Source of the DNA: Planctomycetota bacterium
GTDB taxonomy: Bacteria; Planctomycetota; MHYJ01; JACPRB01
Reading direction: 5' to 3'
Length of the DNA stretch: 41,113 nucleotides
Assembly (NCBI GenBank): GCA_035574235.1
Contig: DATLZA010000103.1
Location: 1-41,113 of the forward strand
Shown: positions 884 through 14,823 of the stretch, one piece after another
Layout of the letters: each line of letters starts with the position of its first letter
Position numbering within the stretch: position 1 is the first letter of the stretch
Program-made: the position numbers and the translations under genes
The notes under the pieces: model-generated
Told to the model about the DNA's origin: nothing
The model's input: the letters and a program-made list of their open reading frames with translations, nothing else
Database searches by the model: none

Positions 884-1723
884 TCAGCGCGCGGAAGGTC
901 CCGTGATCATCTCCACCGAGGCGCGGACGTGCTCCGGATCGAACACCTTTCTCCAGTCCGGACGGAAAATCTGTTCTTTGGCGCGCTCGATGGCCTTTTT
1001 GGCTCCGTCGGAAAAGGGCGACGAGACCTCCCCGAAGAGGATCGCCAGCTCGATATTGAGGTGGCCCAGGAGGAAATCGCGCGCCGCCTGAGGCGGCACG
1101 CCCCTCCGAATCGCCTCGTCCATGGCCTCCCGCACGACCGTCAGGCACGTCGCCGCCGTCGTCTCCGAAAGCGCCGGCTCCAGAAGCACCATCTGCTCGA
1201 CCGTCACCCGGTGGGCGTGGAGAACCGGGGCGAACATCTGCCGGCACAGGCGCTCCCCGCGGGGGTAATCCGACTCCGGTCCCTGCATGAGCGCGCAGAC
1301 GATGTTCTGCCGCGCCTTCACTCCGCCGAAATAGTCGCGCCGGGCCTCCGGATCCGTCTCGTCGTTGAACACGGACGGATGGCAGGGATGGGTCACGAAG
1401 TACGTCACGTCCCGCCGGGGCGGCAGGTGCCCCGCATACGGCGCGGCGGCGTCCAGGCACACGAGCATCGCGCCCGGCCGGAGCTTCGGCACGATCTCGG
1501 CGGCGACTTTTCCGATCGCGGCGTCCGGCACGGCCAGAATCGCCGCGTCCGCCCGCCGCGCCGCCTCGTCCCCCGGAACGGCCGACAGCCCCCGCCGCCG
1601 GAGATTCTCGAGCCCCGCGGGGCTGACTTCCACGTAGAGCATCCGGTACTCGGAGTCCTTGAGGTTGTCGGCGATCCGACACCCCATCTTCCCGCCCGCG
1701 CCGAACAGCGCCACCGTTTCCAT
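884..1723 (-). CDS. apnO: D-apionate oxidoisomerase (ApnO-like), NAD-dependent Rossmann enzyme
   Basis: The 279-aa protein begins with a Rossmann dinucleotide-binding fold (VALFGAGGKMGCRIADNL at residues 4-21). Its C-terminal half is helical, as in phosphogluconate/hydroxyacid dehydrogenases. In known apiose pathways ApnO oxidises and isomerises D-apionate to 3-oxo-isoapionate. The substrate here is inferred from context, because the next genes upstream encode an OiaK-like kinase, a RuBisCO-like protein and an apiose-dehydrogenase-like enzyme. A good ribosome site (AAAGGAG) lies 8-10 bases before the ATG at 1723. The gene sits 34 bases after oiaK and is last in the operon, just before a terminator. 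On sequence alone it could be another 6-phosphogluconate-dehydrogenase-like enzyme; the cluster makes ApnO much the best reading. Confidence 0.75.
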   Translation of the reverse strand: METVALFGAGGKMGCRIADNLKDSEYRMLYVEVSPAGLENLRRRGLSAVPGDEAARRADAAILAVPDAAIGKVAAEIVPKLRPGAMLVCLDAAAPYAGHLPPRRDVTYFVTHPCHPSVFNDETDPEARRDYFGGVKARQNIVCALMQGPESDYPRGERLCRQMFAPVLHAHRVTVEQMVLLEPALSETTAATCLTVVREAMDEAIRRGVPPQAARDFLLGHLNIELAILFGEVSSPFSDGAKKAIERAKEQIFRPDWRKVFDPEHVRASVEMITGPSAR

Positions 1724-1757
1724 CGTCGAAATCTCCTTTCCGAAAGGGGAATCCGCG

Positions 1758-3026
1758 CTATCCCCCGCCCAGGAGCGCCCTTCCGAAGTAGTCCTCGCGG
1801 CCCACCTGGCCGCCCTTGAACGCGATCTCGAGTCCGTCCACGCGGGAGTCCTCCGAACGCGCGCGGCAGAGCGGCGATCCCGGCGCCAGAGGGGCCGCCA
1901 TCTCCAGCGCTTCGATCCCCAGCGCCCGCGCGATCCGCCCGGAGGTGTCCCCGCCGGCCGCGACGATCCGGCGGACCTCGGCCTCCCGAACCGCCGCGCG
2001 GGCGATCTCTCCCAGCCTCCGCCCGAGCTTCGGCCCCTCGACGCGCGGATCCCGGATCTCCGGATCCGCCGGGCCCCGGGCCGTGTAGACCGCGACGCTC
2101 CGCCCCGAGCGAAGCGCGTCGATCACGCGGCCTTCCGCCCTCCCGTCTTCCGGCAACCGCACCCCCAGAAACCCCCGCTCGAGCGCCCACGCGATCTGCC
2201 GATCCGTGGCCGGCGAACAACTCCCCGAAAGGACCAGGATCCGATCCGCCCGGCCCGCCCCCGCGAACGTCCGCCGCGGCCGACCCCAGTGAGCCGCCAG
2301 CGCGTACTCCACCCCCGAAGAGCCCACCAGGAAACGGCCTTCCTCTTCCCACAGAAAGCGCCCGATGGGAACAAGGTGCGCGGGCTCCAGGACGTCGAAG
2401 AGCACCACGTCCGGCCGCTCCGCCCGCGCGGCCGCCACGGCGCGGTCGAACTCCTCCGGCGGACCTCCGACCGCCCGGACGTCCACGAGCGCCGTCCGCA
2501 GCGGCGCCTGCCGCTGCAGAATCCGGCGCAGATCGCTTTCATCCATGGGCGTCACGGGATGGCGGCTCATCGTCGAATGCCGGTCCAGACGCGACACCCC
2601 GTCTCCGTCCGCCGCGAAGAGGTTCCCGAAGACGCACCAGCGCCGCAGCGCCGGGGCGCCCACCACGAGGGGCACCGGCTCCGGTCCGAACAGGCGCCGC
2701 CCGATCTCGATCGCCCGCCCGATGCTGCCGATCTCGGGCGAGGAATCGAAGGTCGAGCAGATCTTGTAGTGCACCTTCCGCGCCCCGAGCCGCCCCAGCC
2801 CCTCCAGCGCCGGCGCGAGCTCCTGTTCCATGTCCGCCGGCGTCATCGCGCGGCTCGACCCCGCCAGGCCCGCGGCCTCGAGGTCCGGGAACCGCCGCTC
2901 CAGGCGCTCCCGCTCGGGAAGCTCCAGGAAAAGCGCCGCGCGGACGCCGTGAACCGCCAGGGCCTCGAGCACGTCCGTCGAGCCCGAGAAATCGTCCCCG
3001 TAGAACGCCAGCGAAAGCGCGCTCAT
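1758..3026 (-). CDS. oiaK: 3-oxo-isoapionate kinase (OiaK-like, DUF1537 four-carbon acid sugar kinase family)
   Basis: The 422-aa protein has the two-domain plan of the DUF1537 acid-sugar kinases. An N-terminal substrate domain opens with YGDDFSGSTDVLE (residues 9-21) and includes the KICSTFDSS motif; a C-terminal nucleotide domain carries AAGGDTSGR. Family members phosphorylate small sugar acids, and OiaK acts on 3-oxo-isoapionate in apionate breakdown. That specificity is assigned here from the adjacent RuBisCO-like protein and ApnO. The ATG at 3024-3026 overlaps the stop of the upstream gene by 4 bases (ATGA), a sign of coupled translation and the reason for this start. Alternatives are threonate, erythronate or denD-type kinases, but those clusters normally carry class II aldolase or isomerase genes, which are absent here. 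Confidence 0.8.
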   Translation of the reverse strand: MSALSLAFYGDDFSGSTDVLEALAVHGVRAALFLELPERERLERRFPDLEAAGLAGSSRAMTPADMEQELAPALEGLGRLGARKVHYKICSTFDSSPEIGSIGRAIEIGRRLFGPEPVPLVVGAPALRRWCVFGNLFAADGDGVSRLDRHSTMSRHPVTPMDESDLRRILQRQAPLRTALVDVRAVGGPPEEFDRAVAAARAERPDVVLFDVLEPAHLVPIGRFLWEEEGRFLVGSSGVEYALAAHWGRPRRTFAGAGRADRILVLSGSCSPATDRQIAWALERGFLGVRLPEDGRAEGRVIDALRSGRSVAVYTARGPADPEIRDPRVEGPKLGRRLGEIARAAVREAEVRRIVAAGGDTSGRIARALGIEALEMAAPLAPGSPLCRARSEDSRVDGLEIAFKGGQVGREDYFGRALLGGG

Positions 3027-13265: not shown

Positions 13266-13278
13266 AATCGCGCCCTGG

Positions 13279-14823
13279 ATGAGACGCCTGGCGGTCCCGC
13301 TTCTGGCCGCGCTCGGAACGGCCGCGTGCGCCCCGCCGCCCGCGGAGCCGGAACGCGCCCCCCGTCCCTTCGTCCTCCACGTCGTCGACGAGGAGACCGG
13401 CCGCGGCGTCCCCTTGGTGGAGCTGCGGACCACGAACGAGATCGTCTTCCACACGGACAACGCGGGCGTGATCGCGTTCGACGAACCCGGCCTCCTCGGC
13501 GAGCGCGTCTTCTTTTACGTCGAAAGCCCGGGATACGAGTTCCCCGCCGACGGATTCGGCTATCGCGGAACCGCGATCGATACCGCTCCGGGCGGCCGCG
13601 CCGTCCTCAAGGTCCGCCGCGTCCAGATCGCCGAGCGTCTGTACCGCATCACCGGCCAGGGGCTTTACCATCATTCCGCCCGCGCCGGACTTCCCGTGCC
13701 CCTTCGCCGCCCCCAGCTCAACGCCCGCGTCATGGGCCAGGATTCCACCCTCGCCGTCGTCCACCGCGGGCGGATCCGCTGGTTCTGGGGCGATACCAAC
13801 CGGCCCGGCTACCCGCTGGGTCACTTCGGCACCGCCACGGCGGTCAGCCGTCTCCCCGAGGACGGAGGGCTTCCTCCGTCCGTCGGCATCGACCTCGAGT
13901 ACGCGGCGGACGAATCCGGCTTCAGCCGTCCCACCTTCGCCTCCCGCGAACCCACCCCCATCTGGATCGAGGGCGTCTTCGTCCTGCCCGATCCCGGGGG
14001 ACGCGAGCGCCTCCTGGCCTGCTACAAACGCATGAAGAATCTCGAGACCTGCGTCGAACAGGGGATCGCCGTCTTCGAAGACGAAGAGGAACGCTTCCGG
14101 CCGCTCGTCTCCCTGCCTCTGGACGAGGACCGCCTCCCGACCGGTCAGCCGTTCCGCGTGCGGGAAGGCGGGACGGACTTCGTCTACTTCGCCACGCCCT
14201 ATCCGACCCTCCGCGTGCGGGCGCGCTGGGAGGACGTTCTGGATCCTTCCCGTTACGAAGCCTTCACGCCCCTTCGGGAAGGGGCGCGCTACGATCCCTC
14301 CCGGCCCGACCTCGAACGGGACGCCTCCGGAAAGCCCGTCTACGCCTGGAAGCGAGGGACGTCGCCCGTCGATCGGGACCGTCAAGACGCGCTGGCGCGC
14401 GCGGGGGCGCTCCCGGCGGAAGAGGGCCGGTGGCGGACGGCGGACGCGGCCTCGGGCGAACCCCTGCGCCTCCACCGCGGCTCGGTGCGCTGGAATCCGT
14501 TCCGCGGCCGCTGGGTCATGATCGCCAACCGGATCGGCGCCCCGGGCTCGATGCTCGGGGACGTCTATTACGCGGAAGCCGCCCGGCCCGAAGGCCCCTG
14601 GTCCCGCGCGGCGCGCGTCGCCGTGCACGGGCGCCACAGCTTTTACAATCCCGTGCATCACGACTTCTTCGACGAAGCGGGAGGCCGGCGGATCTACTTC
14701 GAGGGCACGTACACGCGCACCTTCTCGGACGCGCCCGCGGCCACGCCGCGGTACGAATACAACCAGATCCTCTACCGCCTGGATCTTTCGGATCCGCGGC
14801 TCGCTCCGGCGCGGGAGGACTAA
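13279..14823 (+). CDS. Secreted lipoprotein of unknown function, cotranscribed with the apiosidase
   Basis: The 514-aa protein begins with a lipoprotein signal (LLAALGTAAC, lipid on Cys17) and a Pro-rich linker. A beta-sandwich-like domain follows (about 30-110, HVVDEETGRGVPLVELRTT, like carboxypeptidase regulatory domains). Then comes a long beta-rich part with spaced Trp/Asp motifs (RIRWFWGDTNRPGYP, PIWIEGVFVLPDP, GSVRWNPFRGRWVMI, FYNPVHHDFFDE) resembling a beta-propeller of the GH43/GH32 kind. I do not recognise a named family. It starts 13 bases after the apiosidase stop and ends tail-to-tail with a 4-base overlap on the DUF1552 gene. A TAGAAT box at 13263-13268 could add a local promoter. 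A role in binding or cutting apiose-rich glycans at the cell surface is inference from position. Confidence 0.75.
   Translation: MRRLAVPLLAALGTAACAPPPAEPERAPRPFVLHVVDEETGRGVPLVELRTTNEIVFHTDNAGVIAFDEPGLLGERVFFYVESPGYEFPADGFGYRGTAIDTAPGGRAVLKVRRVQIAERLYRITGQGLYHHSARAGLPVPLRRPQLNARVMGQDSTLAVVHRGRIRWFWGDTNRPGYPLGHFGTATAVSRLPEDGGLPPSVGIDLEYAADESGFSRPTFASREPTPIWIEGVFVLPDPGGRERLLACYKRMKNLETCVEQGIAVFEDEEERFRPLVSLPLDEDRLPTGQPFRVREGGTDFVYFATPYPTLRVRARWEDVLDPSRYEAFTPLREGARYDPSRPDLERDASGKPVYAWKRGTSPVDRDRQDALARAGALPAEEGRWRTADAASGEPLRLHRGSVRWNPFRGRWVMIANRIGAPGSMLGDVYYAEAARPEGPWSRAARVAVHGRHSFYNPVHHDFFDEAGGRRIYFEGTYTRTFSDAPAATPRYEYNQILYRLDLSDPRLAPARED

Follow-up and report, generated by a model that had tools for sequence, protein, structure and literature searches.

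Bacterial pathways that degrade D-apiose through apionate were reportedly described by Carter et al. in 2018, and the reaction steps proposed here follow them. In the present analysis, we have examined a stretch of 41,113 nucleotides from a Planctomycetota bacterium (GenBank assembly GCA_035574235.1, contig DATLZA010000103.1, positions 1 to 41,113 of the forward strand, hereafter the window), in which a single block of genes holds the same families, ApsD, ApnL, ApnO, OiaK and a RuBisCO-like protein (RLP), for which the same order of chemistry is predicted. Differing from those pathways, the window adds an apiosidase of glycoside hydrolase (GH) family 140, has an importer of the MalE type instead of the RbsB type, and encodes divergent sequences. 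The block is probably a D-apiose scavenging locus that would follow the apionate route, with an RLP most likely of the transcarboxylase/hydrolase (OiaT) type. As the pathway has been described before, the interest of the block is mainly that of a further, well-organised case, in which an apiose-freeing step is joined to an apiose-consuming pathway; the bacterium seems to scavenge apiose rather than to dismantle pectin. An earlier note on this DNA had claimed a single block that combines GH140, an importer, a regulator and an oxidative apionate/RLP route, and all of these parts have been found at the place it gave.

Among the sequenced clusters, the oiaX cluster on p42f of Rhizobium etli CFN 42 (NC_007766) shares with the window an RLP (47% identical), the kinase, a protein with a PGDH_C domain, a Gfo/Idh protein, an ApnL match and a NanR-type regulator. 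Unlike the window, it encodes TIM and RpiB isomerases and DhaKL, and no GH140 is annotated or matched in its 27-kb stretch. A plasmid of Microvirga ossetica (NZ_CP016618) resembles the window in its RLP-kinase-ApnO genes (RLP 61% identical), Gfo/Idh protein, ApnL match, NanR-type regulator, adjacent solute-binding protein with two MalF/G-type permeases, and the lack of an isomerase match; it differs by an additional RbsB-type importer, and no GH140 is matched in the stretch examined. The same set of RLP, kinase, PGDH_C protein, Gfo/Idh protein, ApnL match and NanR-type regulator has been found in a Shinella plasmid cluster, and neither this nor the Microvirga cluster contains TIM or RpiB within the stretch examined. 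In the metagenome-assembled genome ACE_ACI1 of an Acidobacteriota member (locus L010), RLP, GH140 and OiaK genes stand in a row, and ApsD, ApnL and ApnO matches lie on the locus as in the window, although the transporter genes are Rbs-like and the gene order is another.

In the accessible part of the literature, a strain with apionate enzymes grew on D-apiose (PMC11747546), and a 2018 review ascribes decarboxylation and transcarboxylation/hydrolysis of 3-oxo-isoapionate-4-phosphate to the RLPs of A. radiobacter K84 and X. autotrophicus (PMC6302742, in the passages available). Passages of PMC10103415 and PMC10176493 were also consulted, and the available text of PMC8920986 contains nothing on this pathway under the words RuBisCO-like or transcarboxylase. 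A GH140 beside an RLP pathway appears in none of the titles and abstract openings among the matches listed, a source that leaves most subscription journals uncovered.

Gene content and layout of the block

Ten genes on the minus strand run from position 11826 down to 884 with intergenic distances of -8 to +34 bp (in order -4, -8, 25, 4, -4, -4, -4, -1 and 34 bp). The series begins with two permeases, continues with a solute-binding protein, an FCD-GntR regulator, a MalK-type ATPase, ApnL, ApsD, the RLP and OiaK, and ends with ApnO. The GH140 gene lies divergently on the plus strand, separated from the operon by a gap of 35 bp.

All five pathway families are represented in the block. The ApnO-like D-apionate oxidoisomerase (884..1723, minus strand; Rossmann and PGDH_C domains, PF16896 with 221 bits) matches the Protein Data Bank (PDB) entries 5t57 and 3c24 with 352 and 286 bits, the next best reaching 30, and is 57% identical to its counterpart in the oiaX operon of R. 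etli CFN 42. The OiaK-like protein (1758..3023, minus), a putative 3-oxo-isoapionate kinase of the DUF1537 family, scores 414 bits with the NCBIfam model OiaK (cut-off 700) and 184 with the second-best model, OtnK. The Gfo/Idh/MocA protein (4285..5334, minus; PF01408), a putative D-apiose dehydrogenase ApsD, matches the 5uhw group of PDB entries with 286 bits against 86 for the next best; 5uhw and 5t57 may be the structures that Carter et al. reported for ApsD and ApnO. The sole NCBIfam match of the lactonase-like protein (5331..6905, minus) is the D-apionolactonase ApnL (E 6.5e-69, 233 bits, cut-off 750); it belongs to no Pfam family, and a PDB comparison with a limit of E 1 gave nothing. The NCBIfam scan of the window proteins has returned no ApsD or ApnO model among its matches. 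The comparison with pathway models suggested in the earlier note has found matches for OiaK, OiaX and ApnL, all of them under the curated cut-offs, and the proteins are therefore regarded as divergent members. The matches of the Gfo/Idh protein, ApnO, the kinase, the lactonase and GH140 stand clear of the next family, and the predicted apiose substrate is supported by this separation.

The GH140 protein (11862..13265, plus strand) consists of a DUF4038 part and a C-terminal PF12904 domain and passes the cut-off of the Pfam Apiosidase family PF13204 by far (413 against 26.5 bits), of which it is the single match in the source genome. It resembles PDB 8t9w ('Apiosidase', 513 bits) and 3kzs/5msy (315 bits), the latter presumably BT1012, over the catalytic and C-terminal parts. 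The Asp/Glu pair that had been expected for this family is present: in the alignment with the 3kzs chain, D192 falls on D167 and E274 on E264. These two residues are taken to be the catalytic pair. No RLP pathway is known to us beside the genes of the 8t9w and 5msy/3kzs enzymes. Secretion is predicted from a short, weak signal-like stretch (MIALLLWTAALAQ).

According to the families found, GH140 would cleave D-apiose off apiosides or off fragments of plant cell walls, and the MalEFGK-type ATP-binding cassette (ABC) importer would take it up. ApsD would oxidise D-apiose to apionolactone, ApnL would open the ring to give apionate, and ApnO would form 3-oxo-isoapionate by rearrangement and oxidation, which OiaK would phosphorylate at O4. 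An RLP of the OiaT type would then shift the carboxylate within the enediolate and, upon hydrolysis, yield 3-phosphoglycerate and glycolate. The source genome encodes three FAD-oxidase_C proteins, presumably of the family of the glycolate oxidase GlcD, which would be relevant if glycolate is formed by the RLP.

The importer is composed of permeases of the MalG type (11011..11826, minus; PF00528, with GlcU/MalG models under cut-off) and the MalF type (10127..11014, minus; PF00528), an SBP_bac_1 extracellular solute-binding protein (8683..10134, minus; PF01547, 66 bits) with a lipoprotein-like N-terminus carrying an RR motif, and an ATPase of the MalK/UgpC type (6902..8002, minus; PF00005 and OB_MalK), which passes the UgpC subfamily cut-off (459 against 432 bits). 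The FCD-domain GntR regulator (8007..8657, minus; PF07729, PF00392) has relatives of 52-55% identity near the RLP in three other loci (L013, L021 and L043). It probably controls the operon and GH140 jointly through a perfect 16-bp palindrome, TACTGAAATTTCAGTA, at 11838..11853 within the divergent gap, a candidate shared operator. No second copy with up to 3 mismatches exists in the window, and 100 shuffles gave no match at all. The window has three perfect palindromes of this length, and the two besides TACTGAAATTTCAGTA are G+C-rich and lie inside genes.

For comparison, a scan of named genomes has confirmed 397 RLP relatives, of which 80 loci were kept, each reaching up to 10 kb to either side of the RLP. 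Because of this reach, and since many loci end at contig ends, the gene counts are lower bounds. With identity and coverage thresholds, OiaK is found near the RLP in 69 loci, ApnO in 32, ApnL in 19, ApsD in 15 and GH140 in 5; with the E-value threshold alone, the counts are 71, 32, 21, 22 and 5. OiaK, ApnO, ApsD and ApnL occur together in 11/80 loci, one of them from Planctomycetota (L052). The GH140 genes of L010, L003 and L077 are about 45-59% identical to that of the window by comparison of open reading frames, and the matches in L025 and L055, at only 27-29%, may be other DUF4038 proteins. GH140 near an RLP is thus uncommon yet recurrent (5/80 loci, three of them at about 45% identity or more). 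The combination had been called unusual, a view that is weakened by the full gene set in 11 loci and by the five occurrences of GH140. The apionate pathway is widespread, and the related loci place its gene set in several phyla besides Pseudomonadota.

Type of the RuBisCO-like protein

The RLP (3023..4288, minus; RuBisCO_large PF00016 with 232 bits, PDB 3nwr with 452 bits) is the single match of its Pfam family in the source genome. The earlier note had left its type between OiaX and OiaT, and residues together with gene context now favour the OiaT type. With NCBIfam OiaX, it scores 518 bits at a cut-off of 700, and eight relatives score likewise under the cut-off (464-526 bits). OiaX is the only model for such RLPs among its NCBIfam matches; it appears as the best match by default, since the score is under the cut-off and no OiaT model is among the matches. 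An assignment as OiaX on the best model match has been rejected on account of this score and of the residues described below.

With the form I RuBisCO of Cupriavidus necator as reference, the window RLP retains the equivalents of E60, N123, K175, K201, D203, E204, H294, R295, H327, K334 and S379 (in its own numbering E28, N109, K161, K187, D189, E190, H276, H309, K316 and S346, of which E28, N109, H309 and S346 correspond to E60, N123, H327 and S379), and the position of K177 is occupied by S163. Residues of the E60, N123, H327 and S379 type are needed for carboxylation and the later steps of RuBisCO. These four are retained in 93, 93, 94 and 91 of 94 aligned non-OiaX rows (window and 3nwr counted, three outgroup rows excluded), with alanine at S379 in the RLP of L010, whose operon includes the GH140 gene. 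In all four rows of the OiaX clade, three of them named OiaX and one not, they are replaced by D, G, Q and G or C, the R. etli OiaX having D/G/Q/G. As residues of the carboxylation step are retained, the window RLP fits a transcarboxylase/hydrolase and is probably of the OiaT type rather than an OiaX decarboxylase. The four positions provide a simple sequence test by which RLPs of the transcarboxylase and of the decarboxylase type may be told apart; OiaX, the one curated model matched here, makes no such distinction.

The OiaT assignment is based on residues and gene context, not on the tree. In a careful tree of 101 rows, which replaced a quick one, the window branches outside a clade of 51 rows (98/95) containing OiaX, whose own clade has a support of 100/100 and a stem of 0.98; the deep branches are poorly supported (36/82). 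The quick tree has been dropped as proof of the placement, the approximately unbiased (AU) test having shown a poor search. A position of the RLP, kinase and oxidoreductase outside the apionate clades had been named beforehand as evidence against apiose. In the best tree the RLP does lie outside the OiaX clade, yet joining the two is not rejected, and because of this and because the RLP shares its family with many apnO-bearing loci, the apiose reading is not refuted. The trees leave the question of OiaX or OiaT unsettled.

With regard to gene context, no match to the isomerases LerI/EryI has been found in the window or in any of the 80 related loci, and the source genome has one TIM gene. These isomerases are matched in 2/4 OiaX-clade loci, both from Rhizobium (R. 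etli CFN 42 and Rhizobium sp. BT03), where the gene named OiaX has TIM and RpiB isomerase genes as neighbours; their absence is a weak criterion, as the other two OiaX-clade loci show none either in the stretch examined.

A further reading, to which we give a rather slight probability, is that the enediolate of the RLP could also capture free CO2, which would make it a catabolic enzyme with real carboxylase capacity, of the kind ancestral to OiaX, wired to an apiosidase via the shared operator. It is conceivable since the residues for enediolate formation and carboxylation are retained, apart from the serine at K177. If true, the OiaX decarboxylase would have arisen from such an enzyme by loss of E60, N123 and H327.

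Alternative explanations

Several observations weigh against apiose scavenging with an OiaT-type RLP. None of the three NCBIfam pathway models passes its cut-off, ApnL being a distant member, and the importer is of the MalE type, whereas that of the R. etli cluster is of the RbsB type. In the careful tree, joining the window with OiaX costs 21.3 log units and is not rejected (AU p 0.228); with the quick tree, the joined topology scored 43.3 higher (AU p 0.93), and both trees and alignment were made without the characterised Xanthobacter OiaT sequence. Three RpiB-like genes are present in the source genome, and of the OiaX-clade loci, those of Salipiger (named OiaX) and S. meliloti pSymA (not so named) have no LerI/EryI in the stretch examined. 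Within 3 mismatches, TACTGAAATTTCAGTA is absent from 15/16 other loci scanned, and the one match, with 3 mismatches in L021, lies inside a predicted gene, so that an operator shared across relatives has been rejected.

Some of these points would fit the same apiose pathway with an OiaX decarboxylase that yields CO2 and L-erythrulose-1-phosphate, the isomerases being encoded elsewhere. The best model match, the unrejected grouping, the two OiaX-clade loci with no neighbouring isomerases and the three RpiB-like genes speak for this explanation. We nevertheless consider it unlikely, as the match is one by default and under the cut-off, the RLP keeps the four catalytic residues that have been exchanged in the OiaX clade, only one TIM gene exists in the genome, and LerI/EryI are missing from all 80 loci. 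In a further alternative, the operon would degrade a different branched sugar, for example D-hamamelose; an RLP pathway for the latter was reportedly described by Kim et al. in 2018. The RLP family indeed serves more than apiose, since 41/80 loci (some ending at contig ends) have none of ApnO, ApsD and ApnL, and the same holds for a 26-row clade in which the kinase is present in 24. Plasmid loci of Cupriavidus and Bradyrhizobium combine RLP and kinase with a short-chain dehydrogenase/reductase, a hydrolase or lactonase, and tripartite ATP-independent periplasmic (TRAP) transporters, the Cupriavidus locus having an ApnO-like gene as well. To our knowledge, no apionate enzymes take part in the hamamelose pathway, which lacks ApnO and ApnL; the window contains matches of both, together with ApsD and a divergent GH140 apiosidase, and D-hamamelose has only a very small probability here. 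In the available text, an Ochrobactrum pathway links RLP and hamamelose, a substrate other than apiose, to 3-phosphoglycerate and glycolate in unclear wording (PMC8914248), and the hamamelose paper is cited in PMC8319343.

The remaining alternatives concern the GH140 side of the block. Together with the following gene (g13279), GH140 might be an unrelated degradative pair standing beside the operon by chance: PF13204 is matched in 35/294 genomes of the phylum (30 over the cut-off), the OiaX model at E <= 0.001 in 29/294 with only the source genome exceeding 252 bits, and the family of g13279 is common in the phylum. Against a chance neighbourhood stand the recurrence of GH140 in 5/80 RLP loci, its position inside the RLP-OiaK run of L010, the 35-bp divergent gap with one palindrome, and the absence of GH140 from all 20 other genomes listed of the same class or family, which together render it highly improbable. 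Conversely, the block might be part of a concerted programme of pectin degradation, and the earlier note had tied it to the decay of rhamnogalacturonan II (RG-II) or apiogalacturonan. Apiose occurs in both (PMC6302742, in the passages available), and GH140 resembles the solved glycosidase 5msy/3kzs. The tie is weakened, however, by the lack of any GH28 or GH88/105 match in the 99.27%-complete genome, other pectin families not having been searched, and such a programme is very unlikely. The same result suggests that apiose would be scavenged, either from apiosides or from fragments that others have set free, which fits better than the unsupported tie to pectin decay.

Neighbouring genes and related loci

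The plus-strand gene that follows GH140 encodes the lipoprotein-like protein g13279 (13279..14823). It lies inside the interval given in the earlier note, yet it is not specific to the system and is probably adjacent only. It has been rejected as partner of the apiosidase because its family is common in the phylum (45/294 genomes including the source genome, E <= 0.001; L149 and L150-L167 are members) and is unmatched in the 80 RLP loci. No family model, Pfam included, passes its cut-off with g13279 (DUF4185, E 0.04), and a predicted fold with a mean pLDDT of 42.9 has not been used. The solute-binding protein of the importer has likewise no match among the 80 loci at E 1e-8.

G+C content and GC3 of the block are like those of the flanking genes, with EF-G left out of the comparison, and a recent transfer has therefore been rejected; the patchy occurrence in the phylum may reflect an old one. 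The source genome is listed with 99.27% completeness and 4.66% contamination. Bearing on the latter, g13279 has a 50% relative in a genome of the same family. A planctomycete-like genome is in keeping with an ECF sigma factor that scores over the cut-off for the Rhodopirellula/Verrucomicrobium family.

Some of the related loci deviate from the gene set of the window. In the Gemmatimonadota apionate cluster L021, where no ApsD is matched, an aldo/keto reductase (11254-12189) lies between RLP and OiaK and possibly replaces ApsD. The 26-row RLP clade mentioned above (L036, L046, L048, L066 and 22 others; members taken from the quick tree, support 100/100 in the careful tree) comprises RLP-kinase cassettes of Verrucomicrobiota, Bacteroidota and Planctomycetota. 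Apart from weak Gfo/Idh matches of 19-25%, none of its 26 loci has ApnO, ApsD, ApnL or LerI over the thresholds; an OiaK-like kinase and an Asp/Glu-racemase-like gene are each found in 24/26, an SBF-family transporter in 22/26 and GH127 in 9/26, and the cassette may represent an undescribed RLP pathway. On a Croceibacterium plasmid (L119, NZ_CP156083), RLP and kinase are located inside a polysaccharide-type cluster with genes annotated as beta-L-arabinofuranosidase, fucosidase, beta-galactosidase, GH28 and TonB receptor, possibly another tie between polymer degradation and an RLP. The RLP-kinase genes lie near those of enolase, PEP (phosphoenolpyruvate) carboxylase and pyruvate kinase on a Cupriavidus plasmid (L121), and near a pyruvate kinase gene on a Bradyrhizobium plasmid (L128), neighbours consistent with a possible entry of the RLP product into lower glycolysis. 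Elsewhere in the window, a mandelate-racemase-type protein adjoins an aldehyde dehydrogenase (31766-34509), and a separate fumarylacetoacetate hydrolase is encoded at 23835-24674; these genes possibly form a second sugar-acid pathway.

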